Part shown: one piece after another, positions 9,472 to 24,368 of the stretch | Position numbering within the stretch: the stretch's first letter is position 1 | Layout of the letters: every line of letters starts with the position of its first letter | DNA from: Lysobacterales bacterium | Lineage (GTDB): Bacteria; Pseudomonadota; Gammaproteobacteria; Xanthomonadales; SZUA-36 | Assembly: GCA_013001885.1 (NCBI GenBank) | Contig: JABDLD010000093.1 | Coordinates: 1 to 64,000, forward strand | Length of the DNA: 64,000 nucleotides | Reading direction: 5' to 3' | Made by a program: the position numbers and the translations under genes | Notes under the pieces: model-generated | Told to the model about the DNA's origin: nothing | Database searches by the model: none | Seen by the model: only the letters and a program-made list of their open reading frames with translations

Positions 9472-9481
9472 AGAAAGACAA

Positions 9482-9889
9482 ATGCGGCAACATTTAGCCC
9501 AGCAATATGATGAGGAAGAATCGGAAATCAACATCACGCCCATGCTGGACGTGGTGTTTATCATGCTGATCTTCTTCATTGTGACGGCAACCTTTGTAAA
9601 AGAAGCCGGAATTGAAGTTAACCGTCCGGATGCGGCCACTGCGGTCAAGCAGGAAAAGGCCAATATCCTGGTGGCTATCGGCCCAAACAATGACATCTGG
9701 ATCGATCGTCGCCAGGTTGACATACGTTCCGTCAGGCCAAACATCGAGCGACTACACGCCGAGAACCCACAAGGTTCAGTCGTTATCCAGGCGGACAAAG
9801 AGTCCAAGACAGATACGCTGATCCAGGTGATGGACGCGGCCCGCTCGGCCGGTGTGTTCAACGTGTCAATTGCGGCCAATGAACCTTAA
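9482..9889 (+). CDS. exbD: ExbD/TolR biopolymer transport protein
   Basis: This 135-residue protein has a short cytoplasmic N terminus, one membrane helix (about residues 22-42) and a periplasmic domain. The motif NITPMLDVVFIMLIFFIV carries the conserved membrane Asp (residue 23) that is protonated during the ExbB-ExbD cycle. The periplasmic part (ILVAIGPNNDIWIDRR...VVIQADKESKTDTLIQVMDA) matches the ExbD/TolR fold. A GCAGGAG ribosome-binding site lies 8 bases before the ATG. It is the partner of the ExbB proteins encoded just upstream and of TonB, which starts 10 bases downstream. Confidence 0.93.
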   Translation: MRQHLAQQYDEEESEINITPMLDVVFIMLIFFIVTATFVKEAGIEVNRPDAATAVKQEKANILVAIGPNNDIWIDRRQVDIRSVRPNIERLHAENPQGSVVIQADKESKTDTLIQVMDAARSAGVFNVSIAANEP

Positions 9890-9899
9890 GAGGTAAGCC

Positions 9900-10556
9900 A
9901 TGTCGGCTACAATTCTTGAAACATTACACTTAAACCGGACCGGCCATTTCGTTCGCATTGGGGTTGGCGTCGTGTTGGGTGTCGTTATCACCGCCGCGCT
10001 CTTCTGGTTCATGCAATACCTGATTGTCACGGCAGACCGGGAACTCAATGAGGGCGCTTCCGGCCACCTGATCGATTTTGTCCGGCTCAAGCGTGACGAA
10101 TCCATTCAGCGCCGGCAATTGAAACCAAAGAAGCCGCCACCTCCAGATGCACCGCCGCCTCAGCCGCCGACGCCCCAGCTGGAAAATCTGAATCCAAATG
10201 CTGAAAAAATCGCGATTTCATCCGCCCCGGTTGAGACCGATATCGAAATGAGCGGCGGGTTCAGCCTCGGGGTTGGCGAAGGCGATTACCTGCCGATCGT
10301 GAAGGTAGCCCCCATCTATCCGCAGCGCGCCCTGTCGCGCAGCATCGAGGGTTTTTGTGTCGTGCAGTACACGGTAACCAGGAATGGAACCATTCGTGAT
10401 CCGTTCGTCATCGAGGACCAGTGCACCAGTTCGCTGTTTCATCGGGCTTCGGTACAGGCTGCCTTGAAGTTCAAGTACAAGCCCCGTGTGATCGACGGCC
10501 AGGCTGTAGAGGTTCCCGGCGTGCAGAACAAATTCACCTACGAAATTCAGGAATAG
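9900..10556 (+). CDS. tonB: Energy transducer TonB
   Basis: This 218-residue protein has an N-terminal membrane helix (residues about 18-42), a Pro-rich spacer (KPKKPPPPDAPPPQPPTP, about 76-93) and a TonB C-terminal domain (about 125-218). The C-terminal domain shows VKVAPIYPQRALSRSIEG and VVQYTVTRNGTIRDP, the usual start of this fold. TonB links the ExbB/ExbD motor in the inner membrane to the TonB box of outer-membrane receptors; the receptor encoded at 45958 is a plausible client. The gene lies between exbD and a TPR gene with gaps of about 10 bases, so all are probably co-transcribed. Confidence 0.92.
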   Translation: MSATILETLHLNRTGHFVRIGVGVVLGVVITAALFWFMQYLIVTADRELNEGASGHLIDFVRLKRDESIQRRQLKPKKPPPPDAPPPQPPTPQLENLNPNAEKIAISSAPVETDIEMSGGFSLGVGEGDYLPIVKVAPIYPQRALSRSIEGFCVVQYTVTRNGTIRDPFVIEDQCTSSLFHRASVQAALKFKYKPRVIDGQAVEVPGVQNKFTYEIQE

Positions 10557-10566
10557 GCAAAAACCT

Positions 10567-11895
10567 ATGCATAGATATCTATCAAATCTGATCGTGGCTC
10601 TGATCACTGGCGCCATGCTGCTGGGTGCAGCGGAAATTTCCTTTGCTCAGCAAAAAGACGAAAAGAAAACCAAGGAAACCGTGGCGATGAGCCAATCGGT
10701 ATATGAGAAGCTGACGGAAATCCAGGAACTGGTGGAAGCCAAGGATTATGCATCCGCGCAGCGTCTGATTGAGGAGGTAAAGGGTAAAAAAGGTTTGAGT
10801 GATTATGAAATGGCCCAGATCTGGAATATCAGCGGATACTCCTACTACCTGCAGGAGCGTTACGACGATGCCATCAGGGCATACGACAATGTAATGGCTC
10901 AACCCGGCCTTCCCGAGGCCCTGATGCTGAGCACCCTGAAAACCAAGGCACAGCTCCAGTTCCAGCAGGAAGACTACGAAGGAGCGCTGGTGACGGTACG
11001 CCGCTTGCTCGACGTCGTCAGTGAACCCAGCGCCGACATCATGATGCTGGAAGGCCAGGCACTGTTTCAGTTGGGGCGCTACGACGACGCACTTGAACCG
11101 ATCAAGGCCGGGATCGAACTGTACCGCAGCCAGGGCCAGGTTCCGAAGGAAAACTGGCTGCTGCTGCTGCGCGTTATCTATTTCGAGCAAAAAGACTATG
11201 AGAGCATGATTGGTGTCGTGAAGGAACTGATCGTGTATTACCCGAAAGACACTTATATCCTCACACTGGCCGGTATTTACAGCGAACTCGGCGATACCAA
11301 GAAGCAACTGGCGCTGACCGAAGTTCTGTATGAAAAGGGCATGATCTCCACAGCGTCTAATGCGGTCAACCTGGCGAACCTCTACTTGTTACACGGCCTG
11401 CCCTACAAAGCGGCCGTTGTGCTGGAAAAGGAAATGGCCGAGAACATCGTGGATGCAAATGAAAGAAACCTGAGGCTCCTGTCCCAGGCCTGGTACCAGG
11501 CGCGCGAAGATGCCAAAGCCATCCCGCCGCTGCGGCGCGCAGCCGAACTTTCTGATGACGGTGAGCTTTACATCAGGCTTGCGCAGGCCCACATCAACCT
11601 CGAAGACTGGGAAGGGGCGGCCAGTGCCGTTCGCCAGGGGCTGAAGCTGGGCGGACTGAAACGCAACGATACCGCGAACATCATGCTGGGAATGGCATTG
11701 TTCAACCAGAAAAGGCTTGAACAGGCACGGCGCGCATTCGAAGTCGCCGCCCAGGACAGCCGTTCCCGGCGTACTGCCAACCAGTGGATTGCCTACGTGG
11801 ACAGCGAAATCAAGCGCAGAGACCTCATGAGGCAGGACATTCCTGAATACCAGGCCCGTGAACGCGACCAACTGGAAGACGTCATCGACCAGTAG
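10567..11895 (+). CDS. Exported TPR protein, last gene of the TonB operon
   Basis: This 442-residue protein has a signal peptide (ending near AEISFAQQ) and then roughly nine tetratricopeptide-type helix pairs, for example WNISGYSYYLQERYDDAIRA, ALFQLGRYDDALEPIKAGIE and IRLAQAHINLEDWEGAASAV. TPR repeats bind other proteins. This gene regularly closes the DUF3450-ExbB-ExbB-ExbD-TonB operon, so a periplasmic role in assembling or guiding the TonB system is likely but not shown here. A strong terminator follows its stop codon by about 20 bases. Confidence 0.88.
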   Translation: MHRYLSNLIVALITGAMLLGAAEISFAQQKDEKKTKETVAMSQSVYEKLTEIQELVEAKDYASAQRLIEEVKGKKGLSDYEMAQIWNISGYSYYLQERYDDAIRAYDNVMAQPGLPEALMLSTLKTKAQLQFQQEDYEGALVTVRRLLDVVSEPSADIMMLEGQALFQLGRYDDALEPIKAGIELYRSQGQVPKENWLLLLRVIYFEQKDYESMIGVVKELIVYYPKDTYILTLAGIYSELGDTKKQLALTEVLYEKGMISTASNAVNLANLYLLHGLPYKAAVVLEKEMAENIVDANERNLRLLSQAWYQAREDAKAIPPLRRAAELSDDGELYIRLAQAHINLEDWEGAASAVRQGLKLGGLKRNDTANIMLGMALFNQKRLEQARRAFEVAAQDSRSRRTANQWIAYVDSEIKRRDLMRQDIPEYQARERDQLEDVIDQ

Positions 11896-11968: not shown

Positions 11969-12772
11969 CTAGCTTATAGCCACCACGTCGATCGATATCT
12001 TCTCCATTACCTTTTCTACTGTGCGGCTGCTGAACGTCGCCGACAGTCCCTTGCGGGGGCTGATACCGAGAATGACCATGTCGGCGCCCACTTTCTCGGC
12101 AGTACCGGCAATGACGTCTTCCGGCTTTCCCATGTCGCGGTGAACGTTTTCGCGCGCCAGGCCGCTCATCCTTCTGATCAGGGACCGGTCAGGAAAATTC
12201 TCGCTGTCCTTATAGGCGTTGACCACGTGCAGGTCCGCTTCAAAGTATTCTGCCAGGAAGATCCCGCGCTCCAGGACCCTCTCGGCCAACCCTACATGCG
12301 CATCATCTTGCTGCTGTGTGTTAACCGCGGCAAGAATACACTTGATCGGGGCGGTTGTTCCTTCGTCTGCAATCACCACATCACAGGAGGAACGACGCAC
12401 CAGATCCCACTTTGAATCCGTGATCCCGCTTTTGTGCTCCGCTGACGACTCGCACAGCATGATCGTGTCGCAGTCATAACGGCTGGCCGCATTTGAAATA
12501 GACTGGCGCCAGTCGCGCGTCCAGAAATACTCGGTTGTATAACTCACACCCAGCTCATCCAGGGGATGCAAAAGATCTTCAAACCAGGCGCTTGACTTGA
12601 CGACCTCCATCGGAGTTTCAGTATCGGTCTTGTCGCCGATCTCGAAACCCATGATCAGGTGAAATTCCAGGTCCCACTTTCGTTCCTGGCGCACAATTTC
12701 AAGCATGCGCTCCAGAGCAAGATGCCTTTCATGAGACGGGTCGACAACGACCAAGTACTTTCTTTTTTCCAC
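11969..12772 (-). CDS. uspE: Tandem universal stress protein (UspE-like)
   Basis: The GTG at 12772 sits 8 bases after a GGAGG sequence and starts the first Usp strand directly (EKRKYLVVVDPS), giving 267 residues. The longer frame to 12865 would overlap the preceding gene. There are two Usp domains in tandem (about 1-135 and 140-267), the layout of UspE. The second has the segment MVILGISPRKGLSATFSSRT, close to the Usp nucleotide-binding pattern G-2x-G-9x-G(S/T). Usp proteins help cells survive starvation and envelope or oxidative stress by mechanisms that are not fully settled. It stands alone between the TonB operon terminator and the CHAT gene. Confidence 0.85.
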   Translation of the reverse strand: MEKRKYLVVVDPSHERHLALERMLEIVRQERKWDLEFHLIMGFEIGDKTDTETPMEVVKSSAWFEDLLHPLDELGVSYTTEYFWTRDWRQSISNAASRYDCDTIMLCESSAEHKSGITDSKWDLVRRSSCDVVIADEGTTAPIKCILAAVNTQQQDDAHVGLAERVLERGIFLAEYFEADLHVVNAYKDSENFPDRSLIRRMSGLARENVHRDMGKPEDVIAGTAEKVGADMVILGISPRKGLSATFSSRTVEKVMEKISIDVVAIS

Positions 12773-12834
12773 TTGCAATTCCTCCGGACATTGATCTGAT
12801 ATTTGCAAAGCCCTGTTGCCGGGCAAAACACATT

Positions 12835-15800
12835 CTACCTTATAAAAAGCTGGAAACCCGCCCACATCATGAAATTTGATTCATCAGTGGACTTCAAACT
12901 GGATTCTCGGGTGCGCGAAAGCGCCTCGGCGGCGTCGCCAGTCGCTTCCAGAGCGGTATAGAATTCACGCACAAACCCGGTTGAGCGGGCCTCTCCATCA
13001 AACCACAAACTTACCAGTACGTTTTTGACGCCCCCGTCCAGGAGGTCCGACACGAAACCCATTCGGCTGTCGAACCCGGAGCGGCCGGCGCCGATGGCCG
13101 CGGTCTGGCTGAGGACCGCGAGGTCGGCCCGGAATGTCGTTCCCCGGATGTCATGGGGTTGGAGATTGACCGCCGCCCTGTCGTTACCTGCGCGGGACAT
13201 CAGCAATACGGAGCGCTCCGGAAACGCGAGGTCCAACGTGCCCGGAACCGCCAGGTGGATAAGGCCGGCTTCTGCTAAACGGGTATCGGTGAATTCTTCC
13301 CGGGTCAGCGCAACCCCCTGAACGATGTGCAATCCGGGGCCGACAAAACGGTCGGTGACGCTGGCCACTTCCTCGGAGGCCTGCACGTCGTAACTGAACA
13401 ACTGCCGGTCGGCCTGCGGGTTGCCGGCCAGAAAAACTTTTTTCTGCTCAGCAACCGGACGCCGCCCGTCGAACGGCGCCAGGCTCACGAGATTGATCAC
13501 ATCGTAGCGTTCAGCGAGAAACTTGCCATTGATCCTCAACGCGTTGAACGGGAACCCGTTTAGCGGCCCGGCTGGCAGAAGATAAATCGTATTATTCAGG
13601 TTTTTTGCAAACGGTTGCAGCAGCACCCTGCCCATCGACTCGAGTTGGGACAACACGTCAGAAGAACCGTTGTTGACCAGCCCGCGCAGTGCGTAAAGCC
13701 GCTGGGCAAGCTTGTCGGGGCCGCGCAATTCAGAGAGTGAAATGCCCCTTCGGCTTCCGATCAGAATATAGCCAGCGGAATCCGTGAAATAATAGGTGAG
13801 CAGCGATTCGTCTCCGGACAGGCCTCCCAGCAGTTTTTCCAGCGCCGATGGTGAGAGCGGACTGATCGATGGCTCAAATACATCCTGCAGGGCCCGCAAT
13901 TCAGCATTGACCTGCTGCGAGAGGATCACGGCCTCCTGGCCATGTGCCGCCTCACGGCGTGCCAGCGCCGCCCGCAGAGACTCATCCTGACCTTCATCAA
14001 CAATGCCGCCTGCTGTCCGTTGTTCATCGGCTTCGATTAACCTGATGCGATTGAGCGCCAGCAGAACCCGTGCCCCATCCACTGTGCCGCCGGAGGTGCC
14101 GCCGGACTGTTCAAGCGTTGTCGCCATGTATTCCTGAAACAGGCCCACCTTGTTATTCCAGTACCAGGAACCCAGGACGCCGGGAAGCGTTTGGCGAAAA
14201 AACCGGATTTCGTCAATCAACTGCTCCATCAATTCCAGCGCCTCGACGGATCTCCCTTCGCGATGGAGAATTTTCGCGCTGACGAACTCGGCTTCCAGGG
14301 ATAGTGCAGGCAAACCGCTGTTTTTCAGCTCATTTCTCTGCCGGCGAACTTTGCTGGTGCTGCAAGCTCCCCTTCCCCTTTGCTCCAGTTCCAGCAGACA
14401 CTGATGCAGTCGGGCTCTGTATTCAAACATCGGTTGACCACTTTGCACGGCTTGCTTCAAATTCGCCGCAAGCAACTCAGCCGCCCGCGTCGAGCCCCTG
14501 CCGTCGAGCTGCCGCGCATCCATTGCCGCTTCAAATGTGTAATCGATGCGCTGTGCCTCTGTCTTGACCTGCTTTGCCTGCTGCTCACGGAATGCGGACA
14601 TCTGGTCATAATCTTCCAGTGCCCGATAAGCCCCGGCAAGGATGCTGTATGCCCTCACGAGGGCATCGTTATTGCCATTCGACGGGGTCCTGGGCAGCGA
14701 TTCCATGATCAACCGTACAGCCTGTTCCCGGTCACCCAGTGAATAATGAGACCATGCAAGCGCAAGGCCAGTGGCGCCCCAGGGACCGGAATTTACGTTT
14801 GAACGCTGCAACTCAAGTGCCTGCGTAAGCTCCTCAACGGCTTCCTCATAACGGTAGCTGCTGTTCAGCAACCGGCCCCGTTCCGACAGGTTGGCGGCGA
14901 CTTCCCCCGCTGCGTCACTTTTCAGGTCCCCTCCAATGTCTTCCAGCATCTCTATGGCCCCGGCCGTACTGCCCAGCGTTTCATAAGCCGCGGCCGCCGT
15001 GCCACGAATCTCATTCACCAGTTCCGCGTCGTTGGTCGACAGTGAAACGTCCAGCGCTCTTTGAAACTGGCGGATCGCGGCCTCCAGTTGCTGCTGCCGT
15101 TCGTACGCCAGGCCGTCGTGGAACAGTGCGCGGGCCTGCTCCGATTTCAGTCCCAACTGATCAGCCAGCAATACAACACGGTCAAGGACACCGTGAGCCT
15201 GCTCCAGGCGGGCATTTGCAATGGTGCCCGAGCCGCTCCCGCCGGCCGTCATCAAAGCGTCGCCTTCCAGTATCAGCGCCGCAAGTTCGATCACTTCAAA
15301 CCCCGCCTTGCGGGCGGAACGCTGGATTTCACGCGACAGTTCAAGGGCAAGCACCACATCACTCAGCTTGTACAAAACCAGGTGTGCCGCGTAAAACTCT
15401 GACCAGAGACGCATCTCTTCCCAACCGAGGCTGGCAAAAGCCCTGGCAGCGTTCTTCAGGGTGTAGGTCTTCATCGCCCAGGTCGATGAGTCGTTGCTGT
15501 GAATGGATTCAGTGCCATAAGACAGCAGGCGGTATGCCTGCGCCAGGGCGGCGCTGTTGCGATCCCTTTCGGGCAACTGAATCAACTCCATGCCGATTTG
15601 CGCACGATCGACCGTACGCCCGGGATTCACTTTAATCATTAACTGGCGCGGCGAATCAACGGCGCCGATGTATTGGTACAGCGGCCCAATTCGTGAAAAA
15701 GGAATCCGGGATGATTTGAGCAGCGCATCCTCGGGCCCGTATACGTTTGAATCGAATTCCGTTTCTGGCGCATCGATCTTGACGACGAGAGCCACTTCGG

Positions 15801-15915
15801 GATACTGGTAGATCATGTATTCAGCCGGCCGGTCAGGCGAGGCCTCGCCCGTCGCCGCAGACTCCGCGGCTGCGGGGAAGGCAATCAGCATGATGATCAA
15901 CGCAGTCCGGAACAT
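12835..15915 (-). CDS. Exported TPR protein with a degenerate CHAT (caspase-like) domain
   Basis: The ATG at 15915 starts a good signal peptide (MFRTALIIMLIAFPAAAESA); an in-frame TTG at 15957 is less likely. The product has 1026 residues: a short beta-rich N-terminal part, many TPR-like helices (about 180-650) and a C-terminal CHAT domain (about 690-1026). The CHAT fold is supported by LLPAGPLNGFPFNAL, GVKNVLVSLWF and a terminal WAGFQLF segment. CHAT proteases use a His in a 'H.AtHG' loop and a Cys in 'LSACeT'. Here the loops read HLAVPG (Pro at residue 891, codon at 13243-13245) and VLSQTA (Gln at 937), so both catalytic residues appear lost. It is probably a periplasmic or lipid-side scaffold. 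It is transcribed away from the VWA genes across an 81-base shared gap. Confidence 0.85.
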   Translation of the reverse strand: MFRTALIIMLIAFPAAAESAATGEASPDRPAEYMIYQYPEVALVVKIDAPETEFDSNVYGPEDALLKSSRIPFSRIGPLYQYIGAVDSPRQLMIKVNPGRTVDRAQIGMELIQLPERDRNSAALAQAYRLLSYGTESIHSNDSSTWAMKTYTLKNAARAFASLGWEEMRLWSEFYAAHLVLYKLSDVVLALELSREIQRSARKAGFEVIELAALILEGDALMTAGGSGSGTIANARLEQAHGVLDRVVLLADQLGLKSEQARALFHDGLAYERQQQLEAAIRQFQRALDVSLSTNDAELVNEIRGTAAAAYETLGSTAGAIEMLEDIGGDLKSDAAGEVAANLSERGRLLNSSYRYEEAVEELTQALELQRSNVNSGPWGATGLALAWSHYSLGDREQAVRLIMESLPRTPSNGNNDALVRAYSILAGAYRALEDYDQMSAFREQQAKQVKTEAQRIDYTFEAAMDARQLDGRGSTRAAELLAANLKQAVQSGQPMFEYRARLHQCLLELEQRGRGACSTSKVRRQRNELKNSGLPALSLEAEFVSAKILHREGRSVEALELMEQLIDEIRFFRQTLPGVLGSWYWNNKVGLFQEYMATTLEQSGGTSGGTVDGARVLLALNRIRLIEADEQRTAGGIVDEGQDESLRAALARREAAHGQEAVILSQQVNAELRALQDVFEPSISPLSPSALEKLLGGLSGDESLLTYYFTDSAGYILIGSRRGISLSELRGPDKLAQRLYALRGLVNNGSSDVLSQLESMGRVLLQPFAKNLNNTIYLLPAGPLNGFPFNALRINGKFLAERYDVINLVSLAPFDGRRPVAEQKKVFLAGNPQADRQLFSYDVQASEEVASVTDRFVGPGLHIVQGVALTREEFTDTRLAEAGLIHLAVPGTLDLAFPERSVLLMSRAGNDRAAVNLQPHDIRGTTFRADLAVLSQTAAIGAGRSGFDSRMGFVSDLLDGGVKNVLVSLWFDGEARSTGFVREFYTALEATGDAAEALSRTRESSLKSTDESNFMMWAGFQLFIR

Positions 15916-15996
15916 CAGACATAGATAACGGTCCGAGAGGTTTAGGTCAACCGTCAATTGCCCCTGCGGCGCCTTTTTGTTAGCTTGCCAGAACCT
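15916..15996. promoter_or_regulatory. Shared divergent control region of the CHAT and VWA genes
   Basis: This 81-base gap separates the two divergent starts. On the minus strand TTGACC (15945-15950) and TTATCT (15923-15928) lie 16 bases apart, but the second box is so near the CHAT ATG that a transcript from it would have almost no leader. I see no clear plus-strand promoter and only a weak ribosome site before the ATG at 15997. Confidence 0.3.
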
Positions 15997-16926
15997 ATGC
16001 GAAGACCGAACAGAGAAACATCCGTATTCAGCACCAGCGCAATCGACCTGTTCGCATCCGCGCTGGGCGCTTTCATTCTGCTCGTCATGATCCTTTTTCC
16101 TTACTACCGGAACGCGGGCGATGACGCCGCTTTTTCCCGCACCCTCGAAATTCAGGAAATGCGCCGGCTCGCTTCCGGTGAAATAGCCCGGATGCTTGCA
16201 GAGCAGCAGGTCTCACAAAGCGAAATCCAGGATATGAACGAGGCGAACAGGGGCATCGAAGAGGCCATTTCCCGCATCCGGAAACGGATGGCCGATATCA
16301 AGACGCAGCTTGCCGAAACACCGGTTCCCAAGCCCGAGCCGGTCGAGGAAATTATCGAAGAGCCGGAACCCGAAGCAGTGACCGCGGGTGTCGAGTTCTC
16401 CATTCTGGGCCTGGCGAGCGAAGCCAAGTCCTTTGTCATCGTCGTGGACATGTCGGGCAGTATGCTGTCCTACACCGACCTGATGATCAAATCGGTGCTC
16501 GAGGTGCTCGAGCCGCTGGACGACAGCAACGAATTCGCGATCATCGGATACCAGGGAAACCCCTCCCCCGTTCTCTGGACCTTTCCGGATCGTGGCGGCC
16601 TGGTCCGGGGCACCGCGGACAACCTGGATGCGGCAAGGGGGTTCATCCAGTCGCTGGCGCGGCGGTTCGCCGGTTCCACCCCCACCCATTACGCCGTGAT
16701 GTCAGCCATGCAGTATCCGGCCAAGTCCATCATCCTGATGAGTGACGGCGAACCGGACAACGCACCCGGCTTCATCATCCAGGACATCACCGGGCTGAAC
16801 CGCTTTGAAAATAAGGAAATTCATACGGTTGCCATCGGCGATTACACGCAGAACCGCGGACTGGTCATGTTTCTGCAGACACTCGCAAGACAGAACGGCG
16901 GCGATTTCGTGGGGGTCTCGAGATGA
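15997..16926 (+). CDS. MotB-like membrane protein with periplasmic VWA domain (first paralogue)
   Basis: The ATG at 15997 gives 309 residues; a TTG at 15958 is possible but would lengthen the cytoplasmic tail. A short basic N terminus precedes one membrane helix (about 15-36, SAIDLFASALGAFILLVMIL) with an Asp at residue 17, as in MotB, ExbD and ZorB stator helices. A coiled coil (about 45-108), a Pro/Glu linker and a VWA domain (about 133-305) follow. The metal-site motif is complete: DMSGS at 151-155, a Thr near 228-230 and SDGEPD with Asp 250. The next gene encodes a paralogue with the same layout (4-base overlap), and a MotA-like gene lies 1.8 kb downstream. A stator-like role is inference; VWA domains usually bind protein ligands. 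Confidence 0.82.
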   Translation: MRRPNRETSVFSTSAIDLFASALGAFILLVMILFPYYRNAGDDAAFSRTLEIQEMRRLASGEIARMLAEQQVSQSEIQDMNEANRGIEEAISRIRKRMADIKTQLAETPVPKPEPVEEIIEEPEPEAVTAGVEFSILGLASEAKSFVIVVDMSGSMLSYTDLMIKSVLEVLEPLDDSNEFAIIGYQGNPSPVLWTFPDRGGLVRGTADNLDAARGFIQSLARRFAGSTPTHYAVMSAMQYPAKSIILMSDGEPDNAPGFIIQDITGLNRFENKEIHTVAIGDYTQNRGLVMFLQTLARQNGGDFVGVSR

Positions 16927-17861
16927 AGTCGCGGCAGCGTAATTTCGAAGTCTATTCCCTGTCCGCCGTGGACCTGTTCGCGTCGGCCATGGGGGCGTTC
17001 ATCATTATTACGATCATCCTGATGCCGGACTACCAGAAAGAAGTGCGTTCGATCGGAGACCTGGAATACCTGGAACAGCTCGCCGGTAAAACCCAGGCGA
17101 TGCTGGACGAGACCGAGGAGGGCAGCAAGGACATCATGGAGGCCCTGCTGGCTGCACAGACCCGGCAACAGAAGCTGCAGGCGCAGTTCGAAGTAGTATC
17201 CAGCGAACTGGAGACGATCAATGCTGAGCAGCAGGCCCGCAACGACCAGCCTCCACCGCCGCCTCCCAGCCCGGTGGTGACGCCGGAGAAAGAAGGCAGC
17301 AACCAGGTCACGTTCCGCTTCCTGGGATTGAAAACCGACAAGAAACGCATCCTGTTCCTGGTGGATATGAATGCGTACCTGGCCGGACACGAGTCGCTGG
17401 TCAGGCGCACGGTGATCAGGGGGATGGAATCACTTCAGTCGGGTTACCAATTTGCCATCCTCGGCTTCCAGCAACAGGACAGCGGTCCAAAATATTACCG
17501 CTGGCCGGCGGACGGCAGCCTGGCCAACATGTCGGACCGGACCCGTGTGCAGGCAATCAGTTTTCTTCAGGGGCTCTCACGCAAATTCGAAGGGTCCTCC
17601 TCGCTGCTCAGCGCCTTTGGCGTTGCATTTCAGAGCCCGGCGGAAGCCATTATATTGATCAGTGACGGCCTTCCCAATCCTGCCTTCAACAACAACCTGT
17701 CACCCGGCAGCCTGGTTCGGAATATCACGGTCTCCAACACCGGCGGGAAGGAAATTCACGCGGTAACCGTGGGTGAGTATTTCAAATACCGTGGAACCGT
17801 GGAGTTCATGGAGTCGCTGGCCCGGGCGAATGCCGGCGGCTTCCTCGCACTGGCGGAATGA
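16923..17861 (+). CDS. MotB-like membrane protein with degenerate VWA domain (second paralogue)
   Basis: This 312-residue protein starts in an ATGA overlap with the preceding paralogue. It repeats the same plan: short basic tail, membrane helix with Asp at residue 17 (SAVDLFASAMGAFIIITIIL), coiled coil (about 45-105), Pro-rich linker (NDQPPPPPPSPVV) and VWA-like domain (about 128-310). The metal site is weakened: the DxSxS motif reads DMNAY (148-152), while the later ISDGLPN (Asp 248) remains. One member with a full site and one without suggests the two form a hetero-oligomer with division of labour. It is followed on the other strand by a small FHA-like gene whose end lies 1 base from its stop. 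Confidence 0.8.
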   Translation: MKSRQRNFEVYSLSAVDLFASAMGAFIIITIILMPDYQKEVRSIGDLEYLEQLAGKTQAMLDETEEGSKDIMEALLAAQTRQQKLQAQFEVVSSELETINAEQQARNDQPPPPPPSPVVTPEKEGSNQVTFRFLGLKTDKKRILFLVDMNAYLAGHESLVRRTVIRGMESLQSGYQFAILGFQQQDSGPKYYRWPADGSLANMSDRTRVQAISFLQGLSRKFEGSSSLLSAFGVAFQSPAEAIILISDGLPNPAFNNNLSPGSLVRNITVSNTGGKEIHAVTVGEYFKYRGTVEFMESLARANAGGFLALAE

Positions 17862-17862
17862 A

Positions 17863-18252
17863 CTAATCTTCCCGCGCGACGCGTAAAAGCCGGATCTCGT
17901 AGTCCCCTATCCGGACGCAATCTCCCCCCCGCAACTCGGTCGGGGCCAACACGGCCTCTCCATCCAGTAAAACCGGCCGTTCCTGCCCCCCGGGCTGTGC
18001 GTAAAATTTACCGGTTTCAGGGTCAAGGCTAATGATGGCAGCGCCATCAGCCCCGGCCTTTTTTGCGTTCAGGTCGCGGGTGCCGGGTTCTCCAGTGAAC
18101 CCCGCCGGTTGCTGAAGGTCAATGGTGTCAGGTTCATCATCAGGCTGGAATCTGCGGGCTAACGGATTGTGGCCGGACTCAATGCTGTCCCTGCCGCGCA
18201 TTGCGCGCGGGGCAGTTGACGTCTGGTTTTGCTTTTTTCGCTTGAAAATCAT
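17863..18252 (-). CDS. Small FHA-like protein, oriented against its neighbours
   Basis: This 129-residue protein starts with a basic stretch (MIFKRKKQNQ) and a disordered region of about 65 residues. The last 60 residues (VLLDGEAVLAPTELRGGDCVRIGDYEIRLL) resemble the final strands of an FHA domain, where an 'L..GD.i.iG...l.l' pattern is typical. The usual GR, S..H and N residues of the phosphothreonine site are not clear, so binding to phosphoproteins is doubtful. It lies head to head with the plus-strand FHA gene (29-base gap) and tail to tail with the second VWA gene (1-base gap). It may have been inserted into, or inverted within, the locus. Confidence 0.65.
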   Translation of the reverse strand: MIFKRKKQNQTSTAPRAMRGRDSIESGHNPLARRFQPDDEPDTIDLQQPAGFTGEPGTRDLNAKKAGADGAAIISLDPETGKFYAQPGGQERPVLLDGEAVLAPTELRGGDCVRIGDYEIRLLRVARED

Positions 18253-18281
18253 GCATCAGCACCGTCACGGGATCGAACACA

Positions 18282-18710
18282 ATGTATCATACCGACATGG
18301 AAAACAGCGGGAAAACCATAGGGCGCGCCGGCGACTGCGATCTCGTACTGGAGGACGACTCCATATCACGCAGGCACGCGCGCATCGAAGTGACGCCCGA
18401 GGGCTACCTCTGCGTCCAGGACGCCCGCTCCAGCAACGGCACGTTCCTGCACCGTAACGGCCGCTGGATCCGAACGCGCAAAGTGATTCTCGGCACCCAG
18501 GACCGGATCCGTTTCGGAGAGTTCGAGGTCCCGCTGAGCCAACTGGTTGAACTGTTCGGAAACCACAGCATCCGCTTGCGTGAAGGTTACTCTGTGCGGG
18601 GTAAACCGCTGTTTTTCGACACCAACCTGGCCGACCTGCCCAAGCCGAAAATCGTGCTGGAAAACCCTCGGCGAAATCCGTTGACCGGAGATATTGAGGA
18701 GAATAAGTAG
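18282..18710 (+). CDS. Soluble FHA-domain protein
   Basis: This 142-residue protein has an FHA domain from about residue 8 to 95 with the phosphothreonine-binding residues in place: GR (14-15), SRRH (29-32) and SSNGT (50-54). No membrane segment is present, so it is cytoplasmic. FHA domains recognise phosphothreonine, which fits the Ser/Thr kinase encoded at 20930. An in-frame ATG at 18297 would remove five residues and is also possible. The stop codon overlaps the GTG start of the MotA-like gene by one base, so the two are translated together. Confidence 0.85.
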   Translation: MYHTDMENSGKTIGRAGDCDLVLEDDSISRRHARIEVTPEGYLCVQDARSSNGTFLHRNGRWIRTRKVILGTQDRIRFGEFEVPLSQLVELFGNHSIRLREGYSVRGKPLFFDTNLADLPKPKIVLENPRRNPLTGDIEENK

Positions 18711-19453
18711 TGCGCATCATCACCCTGGTTGTCAGTCTGGTCACCGCACTGATCGTCATCGCGCTCCTGACAAAAACCTTGCCGCCCTCGGCGGCCGCCA
18801 TCCTGCTTGATATCAAGCGTTCTTCATGGCCGTTCACGGTTCAGAACATCCTTTGGGTTGTTTTTTTCATCGGGCTGGGCGAACTGTCTATTCGCTGGCG
18901 GGCCGGCCGGCTGGAGGCAAGCCAGATTGACCGCGGCTACCTGCCGGAGGACGAAGAAACCGTGCTGCGCCCAGGTGAGGACATGACTCCCATCTACCAA
19001 AAAGTACGCAACAGCAAATACCGTGAAACCTGTTTCGTGCCGCGGCTGATCGAACGCTGCGTGCTGGGTTTTAACCTGAGCCATTCAGCCGATCAGACCA
19101 ACTCGCTGCTGAACTCGAGCATCGAGCTGTACCTGCATGAAATCGATCTGCGTTACAACATCATCCGCTACATCACCTGGCTGATTCCTTCGCTGGGCTT
19201 TATCGGCACCGTAATCGGCATCATGCTGGCACTCAATTACGCCGGTGACCGCGCCAATGTGGAGAGTCCGGATATGCTCTACCAGGTGACCGAACGCCTG
19301 GGTGTCGCCTTTTCAACGACGCTGCTGGCGCTGGTGATGGCGTCGATACTGGTCTTTATCCTGAACATCGTCCAGGGCAAAGAGGAGAACGCACTGAACA
19401 AGGCCGGTCAGTACTGCCTCGATAACCTGATCAATCGCCTCTATTCGCCCTGA
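18710..19453 (+). CDS. Four-helix MotA/TolQ/ExbB-like membrane protein
   Basis: This 247-residue protein begins with GTG overlapping the FHA stop codon. It has helices at about 3-21, 43-61, 155-176 and 199-222. The third reads LIPSLGFIGTVIGIMLAL, matching the family pattern 'P.LGllGTv.Gm', and the fourth (FSTTLLALVMASILVFIL) matches the second pore helix. A soluble stretch of about 90 residues lies between helices 2 and 3, as in MotA and ZorA, whereas ExbB and TolQ have three helices. I infer that it forms a pentameric ring for the two MotB-like VWA proteins encoded upstream. It is distinct from the ExbB genes at 7532-9441. Confidence 0.85.
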   Translation: MRIITLVVSLVTALIVIALLTKTLPPSAAAILLDIKRSSWPFTVQNILWVVFFIGLGELSIRWRAGRLEASQIDRGYLPEDEETVLRPGEDMTPIYQKVRNSKYRETCFVPRLIERCVLGFNLSHSADQTNSLLNSSIELYLHEIDLRYNIIRYITWLIPSLGFIGTVIGIMLALNYAGDRANVESPDMLYQVTERLGVAFSTTLLALVMASILVFILNIVQGKEENALNKAGQYCLDNLINRLYSP

Positions 19454-19466
19454 GGACAGGAATCTG

Positions 19467-20930
19467 ATGCAACGTTCCTTCGTCAAGCTGATCGCCCGGC
19501 TCGCTCTGAGCATGGGCCTGCTGATGCTGACGGGAACATCAGTCGCACAGGATCTGCAGCGGGGAGGCCGCTACGTTCTGCCGCCCGGCTCAATGCCGGC
19601 CTGGACGGTCCCGGTGCTCCGGCTGGTTTCTGCCACGCACGTCGAGCCGACGACCGGGGTCGTTCTGTCCGATACCGGGCTGGTCCTGGTGCCGGAGGAG
19701 TTTGCCGGCGCCGGCGATGAGATTATCGTGCTTGATGGCGGCACCGATATCATCCGCAACGGCAGGCCCGCGAAGATTGAACGCAGATTCACCGTTGAGG
19801 GTCTGCAGGTATTATCGGTACAGGGGCTGAAAAGGCGCGGCGTAACGCTGGCCTCCAGTCCGCTCGAGCAAGGCAGCGAAATCGTCTTGACCGCCTTTCC
19901 GCCCGCTGAACAGATTGCCCTCGGCGAACCGCCGCTGAGCCTTCCGGCAACCGTGCTTGTATATGGTGAAAACCAGCGCCCCTCCGTTTCCGGCGAAACC
20001 GCGCTTCCCAACGTGACCGGGGCATTGGTGGACACCTGCGGAAACCTGGTTGGAGTCAGCATCGCCAATGAAATCCAGAGCATGGAAAGTTCTCCCGCCA
20101 CGCGTTACCAGTGGCGTGACACCCTGCTCGGCATCCTGCGTGAATTGGGTGTACCCCCCAGCGAGTCGGCCTGCTCTCCCGTCGAGGATGAACCTGCAGC
20201 GCCGCCGGTTGACGAGCCTGAGCCGGAGCCTGTGGTTGAAGACGCCGCTCCGGCTGAACCGGAGATTGAAGAGCCGGTAACTGAGCCGCCCGAAGAAGTA
20301 TCGGAGACTGAGCCGGCACCCGAGGAACCAGCCGAAGAATTACTGCCGGACATTCTACCGCCGCTGGAGAGTGGCGCCGATGAAGCTCCGGCCCCGGTCG
20401 AAGAAACCCCGTCACGTGCCTGGTTGTGGCTGCTTGCCGGCGTCTCGCTGATCGGGATCGGTTATTTGCTGCACCGGGTGCGCCGGCCCAGAACCGGGGA
20501 ACTGGCAAAAACAGACGGGAACGAACCCCACCAGCCTGACACCGGCGCGCAGGCGGCCGGCGAGTCCGAAGCTCCGACGCTGAGGCTCGACAGCGTGCTG
20601 CGGATATCCGGAGCCCTGGCGGACGGTACCGAGTTCGAAGACAGCTGCCCGGTCAGCGAGCACGCGATCAACGTCACGATCGGGCGGTCGGGAACCGATC
20701 TGGTCATCGACAGCCGGGCCGTCAGCCGCCGGCACGTCAGCCTGAATGGCCCATGGCGGGAACTGACCGTCTCTGACCTGGGCTCCAGCAACGGCACGTC
20801 CATAAACGGCGTACCCTGCCTGGAGGGGGAAATCATGTACATCGAAACCAGAGACGTACTCGTGCTGGGTGACGCGCGCTGCGCACTGGAGATCGGGCCG
20901 CGCTCAGGAGCCGGGAGTATCGAGTCGTAA
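19467..20930 (+). CDS. Membrane protein: dead trypsin-like domain outside, FHA domain inside
   Basis: This 487-residue protein has a signal peptide (1-28), a periplasmic beta-rich domain resembling DegP-type trypsin folds (about 45-225), a Glu/Pro linker (about 238-312), one membrane helix (317-336) and a cytoplasmic FHA domain (about 375-477). The trypsin-like match rests on TGVVLSDTGLVLVPEEF and TGALVDTCGNLVGVSIA, which align with the 'G.vi...G.ilTnaHV' and 'GnSGGpl.d..G.vvGi' segments. The expected catalytic His and Ser are not there. The FHA site looks intact: GR (406-407), SRRH (420-423) and SSNGT (440-444). It could pass a periplasmic state to phosphothreonine binding inside. It overlaps the kinase gene by one base (TAATG). 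Confidence 0.78.
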   Translation: MQRSFVKLIARLALSMGLLMLTGTSVAQDLQRGGRYVLPPGSMPAWTVPVLRLVSATHVEPTTGVVLSDTGLVLVPEEFAGAGDEIIVLDGGTDIIRNGRPAKIERRFTVEGLQVLSVQGLKRRGVTLASSPLEQGSEIVLTAFPPAEQIALGEPPLSLPATVLVYGENQRPSVSGETALPNVTGALVDTCGNLVGVSIANEIQSMESSPATRYQWRDTLLGILRELGVPPSESACSPVEDEPAAPPVDEPEPEPVVEDAAPAEPEIEEPVTEPPEEVSETEPAPEEPAEELLPDILPPLESGADEAPAPVEETPSRAWLWLLAGVSLIGIGYLLHRVRRPRTGELAKTDGNEPHQPDTGAQAAGESEAPTLRLDSVLRISGALADGTEFEDSCPVSEHAINVTIGRSGTDLVIDSRAVSRRHVSLNGPWRELTVSDLGSSNGTSINGVPCLEGEIMYIETRDVLVLGDARCALEIGPRSGAGSIES

Positions 20931-23359
20931 TGGCGGAGCTGTCACTGGCGCCGGGCGCCATTATCGAAAATCTGCGAATTGACCGAATTCTCGGCCAGGG
21001 CGCTTTTGGAGTCACTTACCTGGTGACCGATCAGCTTCTGAGCAAGTCGTTCGCACTAAAAGAGTACCTGCCTCGCGACCACGTGAGCCGCAGCGAAGAC
21101 AGCCGGCTGCAGCCGAAGAACGAAGCATCCGCCAGCCTGTTCGCATCAGGACTTGAGCATTTCCTGGAAGAAGGGCGCAGGGTGGCGCAGCTGAAACACC
21201 CGAACATCGTAGAAGTTTTCCGCTGTTTCGAAGCGAATGGCACGGCTTACCTGTTGATGCCTTACTACAGGGGAGAGGCCCTGCACACGCTGCTCAAGCG
21301 CAGCGGGGTGTTCAGCGTCGAAGAAGCACTGGCCCTGGCCCGCCCAATGCTGGACGCGCTGGAATACATCCACAGCAAAGGGCTCGTTCACCAGGACATC
21401 AAGCCTGCGAACATCTATATCACCGATACCGGCCAGCCCATACTGTTGGACTTCGGCGCAGCCGGGCAGCGCCTTGACGCTGCTGCATCGACCCGCTGGA
21501 AACTGGGCAGCGAGGGGTACGCGGCACCTGAGCAGTCCGAACATAACGGGTCTATCGGGCCGTGGACGGACATTTATGGCCTCGCTGCCACGCTCTATCG
21601 CTGCATCAGCGGGCAGATACCGGTTGCAGCTGCGCAGCGGCAAAGCGCCGTCGCAGAAGGAGAAGCCGACCCGCTGGAGCCCGTCGCAAACCTGGTGCCG
21701 GCCCAGCCCTATTCCAGCATTTTGAAAGCCATCGAGAGCGGGCTGCGACTGCAGCCAGCCGCCCGTCCCCTGGACGTGGCGGGCTGGCGCCCGGTTTTTG
21801 GAAGGACCGCGGCAGCGGGGCCCGGCGCCGGCAACGCGGCGATAGAGCAGGAAGGAAGGGAGTGGCTTCCGATCATCCTGCTCAGTATCCTGGGCATCGT
21901 CCTGCTCAGCGCCGTAATTTACCTGCTTGCCGGCGGGGACGGAAAGCCGGCCGACCCAGAGGACGGAAGGACTCCGCCATCGGCCGGGACGGACCAGCAG
22001 GCTGAACCTACCAGGGTCTCCTCACCCGAAGAGACTACCCGCTGGCAGTCTGCGCTGGAACTGGATACAGCGTATGGCTATCAGTTGTTCATGCATGATT
22101 TCCCGGACTCCATCCACCGGGAACAGGCTGAAATGCATCTCGAACAGCTGGACGACCAGGCCTGGGGATATGCCCGCCAGCAAAATACCCCGGCTGCGGT
22201 TGCAGCCTACATGGATACCTTCCTCTCGGGAAAACATGAAGCCGAGGCGAGGATCCTGATGGATGAATTCCGGCTCGCAGCCGACGCAGCGCAACGCGAA
22301 ATGATGGAACTGGAGCGCCAGGATGACGAGGCCTGGGAGAAGGCACGCGCTGATCGCACCATTGGCGCGATCAATCAATACCTGTCCGACTGGGCGGGTG
22401 GGCGGCACGACGACGAGGCGCGCACGCTGCGGCGGCAGATCCAGGCTGAACGCGACGATACCCGCGCCTTCGAGGCCGCCGGCAAGCTCGATACCATCGA
22501 CGCTTACAAGTCTTACGTTGCCGCTTTTCCAGCAGGCCGCCACGTAGCCAGGGCGCTGGAAGCGATCGACGACCGCACGCTGCGCCCCGGCAAAAAGTTC
22601 CGGGACTGCGAAGACTGCCCCTCGATGGTGGTCGTGCCGGCCGGTTCATTCTGGCAGGGCTCTGAGGAAACAGCCCCGCTGGCGCTGAAAATGGAAACTC
22701 CCAGGCGAATGGTCACCATCGCCGAACCGTTCGCCGCAGGAGTTTTCGAAATCACGATGGCGCAATGGGACCAGTGCGTCGCCGACGGCGGTTGCAAAAC
22801 ACGTCCGCCCGATAACGGCTGGGGCCGGAGCTCACGGCCGGCGATCATGGTCTCGTGGAACGACACGCAGGAATTTACCGCCTGGCTGAGCCGTAAGACC
22901 GGGCAGTCCTACAGCCTGCCCAGCGAGAGCCAATGGGAATACATCGCGCGGGCCGGCGAGGAAAGTGACTGGCTGGGCGGCAGCGCCGCGAACGTCTGCC
23001 AGTTTGGAAACATCGCCGGCAGCGAATCGGGTTTTCGCTGGCAGCACGAGGAGTGCGCCGACCAGGCCGCCATAGAAACGCTGCCGGTGGGTTCGTTCCG
23101 TGCCAATGCGTTTGGCGTTTACGACGTGATCGGAAACGTGGCCGAGTGGACACTGGACTGCATGAACCTTTCCTATCTGGATGCGCCGGCGAACGGAAGC
23201 GCCTGGGGGCGCGGAATCTGCAGTTCACGCATGACGCGTGGCGGATCCTGGTTCACCGGTTCGCGGGAAGTGCGCCTGCCGGCGAGGTTTAATCTTAAAA
23301 ACGGAGATCGCAACGACTTTACCGGTTTTAGAGTGGTGCGTAGGGTGGAGCCCCAGTGA
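20930..23359 (+). CDS. Transmembrane Ser/Thr protein kinase with periplasmic repeats and FGE-like domain
   Basis: This 809-residue protein has a cytoplasmic PknB-type kinase (about 14-285), a membrane helix (about 313-334), four periplasmic repeats of about 45 residues (about 370-550, 'AW..A...dT..a...Yl..f..GrH...A') and a C-terminal FGE/SUMF1-type domain (563-805). Kinase residues are present: GQGAFGVTY (22-30), Lys44, HQDIKPAN (154-161, with HQD instead of HRD) and DFG (174-176), then SEGYAAPEQ. The FGE domain has GNVAEW and RGGSW, but no Cys pair after RGGSW, so formylglycine formation is unlikely. Chlamydial Pkn1 also joins a kinase to an FGE domain. Likely targets are partners of the nearby FHA proteins. 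No PP2C phosphatase gene is visible in the locus. Confidence 0.88.
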   Translation: MAELSLAPGAIIENLRIDRILGQGAFGVTYLVTDQLLSKSFALKEYLPRDHVSRSEDSRLQPKNEASASLFASGLEHFLEEGRRVAQLKHPNIVEVFRCFEANGTAYLLMPYYRGEALHTLLKRSGVFSVEEALALARPMLDALEYIHSKGLVHQDIKPANIYITDTGQPILLDFGAAGQRLDAAASTRWKLGSEGYAAPEQSEHNGSIGPWTDIYGLAATLYRCISGQIPVAAAQRQSAVAEGEADPLEPVANLVPAQPYSSILKAIESGLRLQPAARPLDVAGWRPVFGRTAAAGPGAGNAAIEQEGREWLPIILLSILGIVLLSAVIYLLAGGDGKPADPEDGRTPPSAGTDQQAEPTRVSSPEETTRWQSALELDTAYGYQLFMHDFPDSIHREQAEMHLEQLDDQAWGYARQQNTPAAVAAYMDTFLSGKHEAEARILMDEFRLAADAAQREMMELERQDDEAWEKARADRTIGAINQYLSDWAGGRHDDEARTLRRQIQAERDDTRAFEAAGKLDTIDAYKSYVAAFPAGRHVARALEAIDDRTLRPGKKFRDCEDCPSMVVVPAGSFWQGSEETAPLALKMETPRRMVTIAEPFAAGVFEITMAQWDQCVADGGCKTRPPDNGWGRSSRPAIMVSWNDTQEFTAWLSRKTGQSYSLPSESQWEYIARAGEESDWLGGSAANVCQFGNIAGSESGFRWQHEECADQAAIETLPVGSFRANAFGVYDVIGNVAEWTLDCMNLSYLDAPANGSAWGRGICSSRMTRGGSWFTGSREVRLPARFNLKNGDRNDFTGFRVVRRVEPQ

Positions 23360-23365
23360 TCGAAA

Positions 23366-23432
23366 CCAGCAGGGAAGAAAGCCAGCGCTTCTTTGCCTGC
23401 GGCAAAACCGCACGGGCTTTCTTCCCTGCTGG
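23366..23432. repeat. 18-base perfect inverted repeat between the kinase gene and the next gene
   Basis: The arms CCAGCAGGGAAGAAAGCC (23366-23383) and its exact reverse complement (23415-23432) enclose 31 bases, which themselves contain a 5-base hairpin (TGCGG/CCGCA, 23397-23411). No T run follows, so it is not a standard terminator. It may be an mRNA-stabilising or attenuating structure, or a mobile palindromic repeat. Confidence 0.8.
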
Positions 23433-23483
23433 CTGCTTCAGGGGGCGTTCAGTTTGTTGGTGCATAATTGAGGCATGGTAAAA

Positions 23484-24368
23484 ATGCGTATTAATTTGCT
23501 TGTTTTCCTGCTGGGAACCTTCTGGCTGCCGTTGGCACTTGCCCAGGAAGCGGAGCCGGCGGAGGACGCGGACGATTCCAGTGACCAGGTCGAGCAGCGG
23601 GACGATTCCTACCGACGGCAGATGGAACTGGAGGACGCCAGGGCGCGCGACCGCAGCTACATCGACAACACTTATACACCCTCGGGCGATCTCGAAAAGA
23701 TCGACAAGCTGCCCGAGGAGTCACGGGAAAACATTCGCGACCAACTGGTTGACGTCATCATGGAGAACGGGGAATGGGAGCCTTCCGACGCTCTCGAGGA
23801 ATATCCATACCAGCCTACCGCAGCGGCCCAGGCCGACGCCGAATTGATGGAGCAGGAGCAGGAAGCCTGGGACGAACAGATCGAGAAATATCACAAGCGT
23901 GAAGCAGCGGCATTCGGCAGTTACCGCGGCCCGGTTCCGGGACCCGGCAACCCCACCGGCCAGGAGGGCGGACAACAGGGAGGGGAGCAGGGCAGCGGCC
24001 AGGAAGGACAGGACAGTGGCCAGGGAGCCGACGGCTCAGGCTCAGCCGGCACTTATCAGCCCTACGAGCCCAACTCCTCGAGTTCAGAAGATGAAACCAG
24101 CACCGCCGGTGTTTCGGAAAGCGCCCTCGATTTTCTGCGGAGCGGCCGCACGGGAGCGCAACAACAGCAGGCTCAGCAGGCCGAAAACCCGGAGCAGCTC
24201 GCCGAGCAGTCTTCAGAGCAAGCTGAAGAACAGGTTACTGCCGAGCAGCAGCGACCTTCTGAGCAGGCGATACAGCCCGACCTTCGCGGCATCATCGCGA
24301 TCCAGGACCTGGACAAGCTGGAGGGCACAGAAATCCCGGTTGCACCTGAAGAGCAGGAAGACCCCTAG
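23484..24368 (+). CDS. Exported low-complexity protein, unknown function
   Basis: The ATG at 23484 (294 residues) has a GAGG sequence 10 bases upstream; the ATG at 23475 is only one base from it and is less likely. A signal peptide (RINLLVFLLGTFWLPLALAQ) leads into an acidic, Arg-containing region (about 25-130) with some helix. A Gly/Gln/Ser-rich stretch (about 155-190) and a Gln/Glu-rich tail (about 220-265) follow. I do not recognise a domain. The gene follows the kinase in the same direction after the 18-base inverted repeat, so it is probably the last member of the signalling locus, perhaps a flexible periplasmic linker. Its stop overlaps the end of the convergent endonuclease gene by 4 bases. 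Confidence 0.75.
   Translation: MRINLLVFLLGTFWLPLALAQEAEPAEDADDSSDQVEQRDDSYRRQMELEDARARDRSYIDNTYTPSGDLEKIDKLPEESRENIRDQLVDVIMENGEWEPSDALEEYPYQPTAAAQADAELMEQEQEAWDEQIEKYHKREAAAFGSYRGPVPGPGNPTGQEGGQQGGEQGSGQEGQDSGQGADGSGSAGTYQPYEPNSSSSEDETSTAGVSESALDFLRSGRTGAQQQQAQQAENPEQLAEQSSEQAEEQVTAEQQRPSEQAIQPDLRGIIAIQDLDKLEGTEIPVAPEEQEDP

Follow-up and report, generated by a model that had tools for sequence, protein, structure and literature searches.

What is encoded by a nine-gene block of a Lysobacterales bacterium in which genes for a MotA/TolQ/ExbB-like membrane protein (MOT) and two transmembrane (TM) VWA proteins (VWA1 and VWA2) are packed together with genes for a TM Ser/Thr kinase (STK) and two FHA proteins (FHA and TRY)? 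To answer this question, we analyzed a window of 64,000 nucleotides (positions 1 to 64,000, forward strand, of contig JABDLD010000093.1; NCBI GenBank assembly GCA_013001885.1), in which the block, conserved among marine bacteria, occupies positions 12835–24368. A first-pass annotation, made from the letters alone, had proposed a genetic link between a MotA/MotB-like membrane complex and a TM Ser/Thr kinase with FHA readers, and the results presented below support this link. As judged from sequence, we put the probability that the block encodes a phosphorylation-gated, ion-driven envelope motor within a TM Ser/Thr phospho-signaling unit at ~60%.

Eight of the nine genes are conserved as a block

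Open reading frame analysis and Pfam searches revealed nine genes, all of them open and with the domains described below present. The named genes, their domains, and the close packing with 1- to 4-base overlaps reported in the first-pass annotation were borne out by Pfam matches and coordinates: VWA1 and VWA2 overlap by 4 bases (16926/16923), and FHA and MOT (18710/18710) as well as TRY and STK (20930/20930) overlap by 1 base each. A small minus-strand gene had been missed, and two starts had to be shifted. VWA1 has its conserved start at ATG 15997, replacing TTG 15958, and a start at ~15915 yields a signal peptide for the divergent CHAT gene.

A search of a public genome set with MOT as the query produced 24 loci from other genomes, all of them metagenome-assembled genomes titled Lysobacterales, Xanthomonadales, Chromatiales, Oceanospirillales, Proteobacteria, or Gammaproteobacteria. 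The genes around MOT were recounted with a check of gene position, counting loci with enough flank or with a match in place. FHA was kept in 23/23 loci, TRY in 22/22, VWA2 in 21/21, VWA1 in 19/19, STK in 18/18, and CHAT in 17/17. LC, a gene for a low-complexity protein, was kept in 16/16 relatives with enough flank (31–67% identity); this count was made without the position window, which misses L018 and L020, where STK is shortened and LC lies nearer to MOT. With the exception of the small minus-strand gene, which was found in half of the relatives with sufficient flank (11 of 22), the block is thus complete wherever the contig is long enough, and this synteny rules out chance clustering. Since the endonuclease I gene, the next one beyond the block, was kept in 0/12 relatives, the edge of the block is real; the Usp gene at the other side was kept in 5/14.

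MOT is the best conserved gene (73–94% identity in 24 relatives, median 84%), followed by VWA1 (median 76%) and VWA2 (68%). Median identities were 56% for STK, 48% for TRY, 47% for FHA, 40–42% for LC, and 38% for CHAT. An orthologous MOT was found in 27 of 36 same-family relatives (74–94%), plus one contig-end fragment, and in none of 24 relatives from other families of the order, 3 of which carry a MOT of a second kind (type II, see below).

A predicted stator core with an unequal pair of VWA subunits

MOT (18710–19453, plus strand) encodes a 247–amino acid, four-helix stator subunit of the MotA/TolQ/ExbB kind. It matches PF01618 (MotA_ExbB) with an E value of 3.4e-13 and contains four hydrophobic stretches, one of which was split by the scan. 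Thr167 (FIGT) and Thr204 (FSTT) are invariant in the alignment of MOT proteins and align with threonines of TolQ/ExbB (hhalign profile alignment, probability 85%, E 6e-6). Direct sequence matches to the solved PomA, MotA, and TolQ proteins were marginal (E 0.25 and worse). The genome holds seven MotA_ExbB matches, some of which were read as TolQ (beside ruvB) and ExbB; MOT thus appears to be an extra, dedicated subunit.

VWA1 (15997–16926, plus strand) consists of an N-terminal TM helix, a 65-residue helix, and a VWA domain (PF13768, VWA_3; E 1.7e-10) with an intact metal ion–dependent adhesion site (MIDAS; DMSGS). In its AlphaFold model (mean predicted local distance difference test score of 79, lower in the TM part), helices 13–38 and 43–107 precede the VWA fold, and Foldseek returned VWA matches for this model at E 2e-10. 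The putative stator aspartate is Asp17, located in a TM helix of the transpore type (AIDLFASALGAFILLVMIL). VWA2 (16923–17861, plus strand) has a VWA1-like plan, and its TM helix contains the stator aspartate as well (AVDLFASAMGAFIIITIIL); its PF13768 match is weak (E 4e-4, below the curated cut-off) and its MIDAS is degenerate (DMNxxL). In both proteins, the single N-terminal hydrophobic helix follows the pattern A-I/V-D-L-F-A-S-A-x-G-A-F. Asp17 is invariant in 25/25 aligned rows (14 VWA1, 5 VWA2, the more distant L075 and L080, and 4 type II VWAb), and the helix pattern was detected in 71 of 85 wider proteins, the remaining 14 being, as far as inspected, truncated, mis-started, or off-pattern. 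The MIDAS pattern is present in 19/21 VWA1-type proteins versus 0/21 VWA2 proteins, and the VWA pair is thus unequal. Domain searches revealed no tolR, exbD, or motB match among the nine block proteins. Based on the aspartate in both VWA helices and the TolQ/ExbB-aligned threonines, MOT and the VWA pair very probably form a 5:2 stator.

FHA proteins and a transmembrane kinase surround the core

The cytoplasmic FHA protein (18282–18710, plus strand) matches PF00498 with an E value of 1.7e-18. Its R, S, H, N, and G residues at the positions that we take to bind phosphothreonine are intact. The FHA gene lies beside MOT, on the same strand, in all 30 loci with a readable FHA gene (the window, 23 family loci, and 6 others). 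The gap or overlap between the two genes is no more than 75 nt in 29 of these loci, including L024, where FHA starts inside MOT; in L073, it is 197 nt. By pattern, 25 of 28 FHA proteins from Gammaproteobacteria and Rhizobium carry the C-terminal tail R-N/D-P-x-T-G-x-I, which was also seen by eye in L018 and L021; the pattern misses L022, L074 (TGEL), and L073 (a fragment). The tail is a possible phosphosite. Since it is kept in five loci whose kinase is broken (L015, L017, L018, L020, and L021) and lost in a sixth (L022), it may instead be a docking tail.

STK (20930–23359, plus strand) encodes a cytoplasmic Ser/Thr kinase (PF00069, E 5e-37; K, HxD, N, and DFG intact), a TM helix (residues 315–333), a periplasmic repeat stalk, and an FGE-sulfatase domain (PF03781, E 9e-46). 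The periplasmic FGE fold is closest to PvdO (5hha, E 3e-40), and GldK/PorK are among its other matches.

TRY (19467–20930, plus strand) carries a signal peptide, a periplasmic DegS/S1C-like domain, a Pro/Glu-rich linker, a TM helix (residues 318–336, with a +3 C-terminal flank), and a cytoplasmic FHA domain (E 1.3e-10). The first-pass annotation had called the periplasmic part trypsin-like. This holds for the fold, since the predicted structure matches DegS/HtrA/S1C proteases (Foldseek, DegS 2qf0, E 3e-8); no Pfam trypsin match was obtained for the window protein, and the catalytic motifs are missing, which speaks against an active trypsin enzyme. The catalytic His pattern is absent in 19/19 family proteins. 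The Ser region, readable in 15 of the 19, is NVTGA in the window, with Thr in place of Ser; Ser is present in L007, L018, L019, and L022. With the His pattern absent throughout and NVTGA in the window, TRY is probably a pseudo-protease.

Kinase residues are intact in 13/18 aligned family members, including the window. The kinase is broken or its domain lost in L017, L018, L020, L021, and L022, and judged broken by eye in L015. Among the 12 kinase-intact loci for which an FHA could be aligned, 11 keep the FHA residues, versus none of five kinase-broken loci (L015, L017, L020, L022, and, by eye, L018; L021 is cut by the contig end). The decay of the kinase and of the FHA protein thus goes together, an association that is suggestive and falls short of proof because all cases belong to one clade.

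Occurrence beyond the family

The first-pass annotation had set co-occurrence beyond close relatives as a check, and such co-occurrence was found in other gammaproteobacterial families (L075 and L080) and on a plasmid of Rhizobium. We searched 369 other gammaproteobacterial genomes with a profile built from the two kinds of MOT, and 33 of them matched above 200 bits: 5 are similar to the window cluster (type I-like), 27 are type II or alike, and 1 (G097) was left unread. The type I-like MOT proteins are 49–55% identical to the window MOT and orthologous to it. Their cassettes were fully read in L075 and L080 and partly in L073, L074, and L076; genes missing from the latter three mean nothing since these contigs end early. 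L075 and L080 each combine a single TM-VWA protein with kinases. PP2C phosphatase genes lie near MOT in L073, L075, and L080, and trypsin-like domains joined to FHA occur twice in L075 and once in L076 (Trypsin_2 matches in these two loci of up to 1e-29) and, by a custom profile, in L080. The partial stretch of L074 contains a sigma-70 region 2 protein and no PP2C gene. Beside the PP2C and kinase genes of L080, a thermolysin-like (M4) domain is joined to FHA (12225–14510).

On the Rhizobium plasmid (L089), MOT is accompanied by two PP2C proteins, two kinases with PDZ domains, an FHA protein, and a low-complexity protein of 1610 amino acids. The front of the membrane FHA protein of this locus is VWA-like by eye only. 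Another L089 gene (14808–15545) encodes a stator-type helix as in the VWA proteins, with no Pfam match behind the helix; from this protein, the periplasmic head behind the stator helix seems to be exchangeable.

Type II clusters (L033–L042, L077–L079, L081, L086, and L087) are frequent in the sampled Gammaproteobacteria. Their gene order is lipoprotein, TPR protein, PEGA-FGE protein, MOT, often an extra protein with an FHA-like C terminus, VWAa, and VWAb. A VWA gene lies within ~1.5 kb of MOT in 17 of the 27 type II stretches and, on wider reading, in 2 more (L081 and L087); 7 of the 27 end in an Hsp70-like gene, where reading stopped. The label “Hsp70/actin-like” is a reading by eye: in three proteins tried, Pfam searches returned no Hsp70 or actin match, only FHA (L087) and a weak related match (L033). 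A true kinase domain (E 4e-29) is part of the L087 TPR protein, and the extra protein of this locus carries a true FHA domain (5e-12). In the last of the 27 stretches (L063/L085, genome G247), no VWA gene was found near the MOT-like gene (~9298–10341), which scores 307 bits.

We also searched mobile elements. MOT had no match in phage records and none that was confirmed in viral contigs. Three plasmid records matched: Rhizobium, a true relative, and Anabaena and Microcystis, which matched over ~60% of the length at 30% identity; the Rhizobium and Anabaena matches were read, and the Microcystis match was not. The kinase query matched 143 plasmid records, none of which covered 80% of the query among the 15 matches listed. 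With a single true plasmid relative and no phage or confirmed viral match, we rejected phage or plasmid cargo as an explanation. The MotA/ExbB-like gene of the Anabaena plasmid (L090, 9686–11086) adjoins type III-B CRISPR genes, with a viperin gene a few kilobases off, a setting that points to a possible defence link of another motor.

Is the motor coupled to phosphorylation?

The reading of the block as a phosphorylation-coupled motor rests on several lines of evidence. For the motor itself, these are the conservation of the block, the slow change of MOT and the VWA genes, the stator aspartates and threonines, and a published structure prediction for a pair of this type. The FHA gene adjoins MOT in every readable locus; genes for FHA, membrane FHA proteins, kinases, and PP2C recur around an orthologous MOT in L075 and L080, in Rhizobium L089, and partly in L073 and L076; type II locus L087 also has a kinase and an FHA protein; the kinase and FHA decay jointly; the FGE domain is closest to PvdO; and a pathway with similar parts controls type VI secretion (see below).

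A number of observations weigh against it. L016 has an intact kinase and a broken FHA, and the FHA domain of TRY is intact in 3 of 6 kinase-broken loci. Every broken kinase or FHA sits in one clade (tree support 0.93), so the decay represents few independent events. No PP2C_2 phosphatase match was obtained in the window's own genome. The kinase model matches in 3 of 16 wider type II loci (L087 and, more weakly, L034 and L037), some of these contigs stopping before the kinase gene. The distribution of type I outside the family is patchy: it was seen in 5 of 369 class genomes, in 0/46 order-mates of G406, and in 0/5 of G091. In a phylum sample of 396 genomes besides our own, searched with the type I profile at E <= 1e-20, no type I cluster was recognized: of four matches, G137 and G161 were type II by reading, and G529 and G692, with similar scores, were left unread. 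We therefore make no claim of a wide spread of type I. Finally, the motor genes persist in loci with a broken kinase (MOT at 73–79% identity), which indicates that the motor can do without phosphorylation; since the motor survives without the kinase, phosphorylation would be a control layer.

The same persistence of MOT, along with the small share of type II loci with a kinase-model match, would be expected if the block were a plain force transducer of the previously predicted TPH-vWA kind, with the kinase, FHA, FGE, and protease-fold proteins being loose neighbors or serving another process. We consider this explanation unlikely, though the best of the alternatives, given the position of FHA beside MOT in 30/30 loci and the recurrence of kinase, FHA, and MOT, accompanied by other accessory domains, in distant families and Rhizobium, as well as their recurrence in type II L087.

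Exported and flanking genes

The CHAT gene (12835–15915, minus strand) encodes an exported protein with a signal peptide at its hydrophobic N terminus, TPRs, and a C-terminal CHAT fold (PF12770, E 2.7e-30); it is 27–56% identical in 17/17 relatives. The CHAT His region was found in 14/15 proteins. Pattern reading of the Cys region was limited to the window and L012, neither of which contains a Cys: the window has LSQTAA at the presumed site of the catalytic Cys of such proteases. Both this Cys site and the Cys pair of FGE were assessed visually against known motifs, mainly in the window. With no Cys at the presumed catalytic place, an active CHAT enzyme was rejected, and the protein is possibly a pseudo-protease.

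The small gene (17863–18252, minus strand; 129 amino acids) lies between VWA2 and FHA, inside the operon. It has conserved blocks NPLARRF, EPdTiDL, and TGKFY and no Pfam match; by eye, its C terminus resembles a degenerate FHA domain. Upstream of the block, an ExbB/ExbD/TonB/TPR cluster (8902–11895, with the ExbB-ExbD-TonB set at 8902–10556) represents a separate system, which also adjoins the block in L002, L004, L007, and L011.

LC (23475–24368, plus strand) encodes an exported Gln/Glu/Gly-rich protein with a signal-like N terminus. Exported or low-complexity partners recur around these motors (LC in 16/16 relatives, a Ser/Gly-rich protein in type II L036, and the 1610–amino acid protein in Rhizobium), and, according to PMC3169522, the Agl-Glt machine of Myxococcus joins a TolQR motor to an FHA-TonB protein. 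A gliding, adhesion, or surface-polymer machine, in which the motor would drive LC or surface VWA contacts as in Agl-Glt, could account for these features; it is improbable, as the sole Glt family match was GltG via its FHA domain, at 39 bits versus a cut-off of 650.

The first-pass suggestion of defence, in which a Zorya-like anti-phage or anti-competitor motor would sense an envelope breach and trigger an effector, finds some backing in weak ZorA-profile matches of MOT (PADLOC, best E 4e-6, residues 145–235 only), in STK matches to the PD-T4-6 (E 4e-45) and MAD6 (1e-43) kinase models, which may reflect general kinase similarity, and in the patchy distribution outside the family, but is very improbable because the nine proteins have no nuclease or helicase effector and no ZorC/ZorD match among the matches listed (for the kinase, 25 of 34 families), the MOT ortholog is present in 27/36 family members, and MOT is without a match in phage records or a confirmed one in viral contigs.

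How the motor might work

In the mechanism that we favor, five MOT subunits around the VWA1-VWA2 pair would form an inner-membrane motor, with MOT conducting ions past the aspartates of both VWA helices. Ion flow would turn or pull the stalks and thereby move the periplasmic VWA heads relative to envelope partners, for which the trypsin-fold protein, the FGE domain, CHAT, and the exported LC are candidates. The FGE domain of STK would read the state of the VWA heads or the envelope across the membrane and set kinase activity. Phosphorylated cytoplasmic threonines would be bound by the FHA protein, which, seated on MOT, would gate the motor, and by the FHA tail of TRY, which would recruit the rest. 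The outcome could be a switchable force generator for the envelope or its force sensor. The direction of the signal is not readable from sequence; we favor both, from the periplasm to the kinase and from the phospho-state to MOT via FHA. Gene content, synteny, domains, stator residues, and recurrence were observed directly; assembly, ion flow, signaling direction, and physiological role are what we infer from them.

A more far-reaching version of the phosphorylation-gated motor is tentative. Here, the movement or stalling of the VWA heads might switch the kinase, FHA-MOT binding might close the loop, and the type II sister would widen the family. If so, a single operon of this mechano-signaling class would supply both a motor and the sensor of its load, and, with type II included, kinase-wired envelope motors could represent a broad family within Proteobacteria. 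Predictions of stator-type motors whose loads are unknown now extend to many bacteria. A cytoplasmic FHA protein beside the motor and a TM kinase with a sensor-like periplasmic fold suggest the missing wiring, and the control and load of VWA motors become directly testable questions. Envelope motors would thereby be joined to Ser/Thr signaling, a combination known only in pieces, from the control of type VI secretion and from gliding.

Comparison with known systems

The block differs from flagellar MotA-MotB: flagellar models matched only at E 0.003 or worse, far below cut-off, and no OmpA-like domain was detected by Pfam in the block proteins, unlike in MotB and ZorB. Zorya shares the MotA-like subunit with a TM partner that carries an aspartate, as ZorB-type partners do; it differs in that MOT, at its length, lacks the long cytoplasmic tail of ZorA and in that the partners carry VWA domains. 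ExbB-ExbD and TolQ-TolR share the MotA_ExbB superfamily and the matching Thr positions with MOT, but in the block VWA takes the place of the ExbD/TolR domain. The Agl-Glt machine likewise combines a TolQ-type motor with an FHA protein; in PMC3169522, ExbD/TolR subunits and a TonB-type GltG are listed for it. In the type IX secretion system, GldL/GldM form a stator-type motor, and the FGE-fold protein GldK stands beside it, as the FGE domain of STK stands beside MOT. To our knowledge, GldM has no VWA domain, and we know of no kinase or FHA protein in that machine.

The proposed wiring would resemble the PpkA-TagR-Fha-PppA pathway of the type VI secretion system (T6SS), with a stator replacing the secretion machine. 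The VWA domain of PpkA is periplasmic, and TagR may have an FGE-like fold. According to PMC11881912 and PMC6082577, PpkA is activated via periplasmic TagR and phosphorylates Fha, PppA reverses this step, and the pathway responds to outer-membrane damage and force; Pseudomonas aeruginosa PpkA itself carries a VWA domain (PMC1262709). The block likewise has a TM Ser/Thr kinase and an FHA protein, with PP2C in L073, L075, L080, and L089; it differs in placing VWA on the stator subunits, in fusing FGE to the kinase, and in the lack of PP2C_2 in the genome. A T6SS control module was ruled out, as the VipB sheath gene had no match in the genome (~98% complete), with a positive Escherichia coli control.

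The closest described relatives are the TPH-vWA pairs predicted from AlphaFold 3 models (PMC12204202; Mol Biol Evol 2025), vWA-kind stator motors for which no function is known. In these, a tolQ-like gene without tolR is accompanied by a heterologous TM-vWA pair with a conserved TM aspartate, which a threonine ring faces. The block has the same elements: a tolQ-like gene beside a heterologous TM-vWA pair (MOT and VWA1/VWA2), kept in relatives; no tolR, exbD, or motB in the cluster; an aspartate in each vWA TM helix; and, at residue level from the alignment, threonines at the ring positions (Thr167 and Thr204). The Idiomarina cluster of that study may be type II. The first-pass statement that no such system had been described was therefore overstated. 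We found no description of a kinase-coupled form in the open-access literature; in the text of PMC12204202, the word “kinase” is absent and “FHA” occurs only inside FhaC. The stator core is thus already predicted in print, and what is new in the block is its conserved kinase/FHA wiring: to a TPH-vWA core it adds a TM kinase that carries FGE, a pair of FHA proteins, and proteins with a protease fold.

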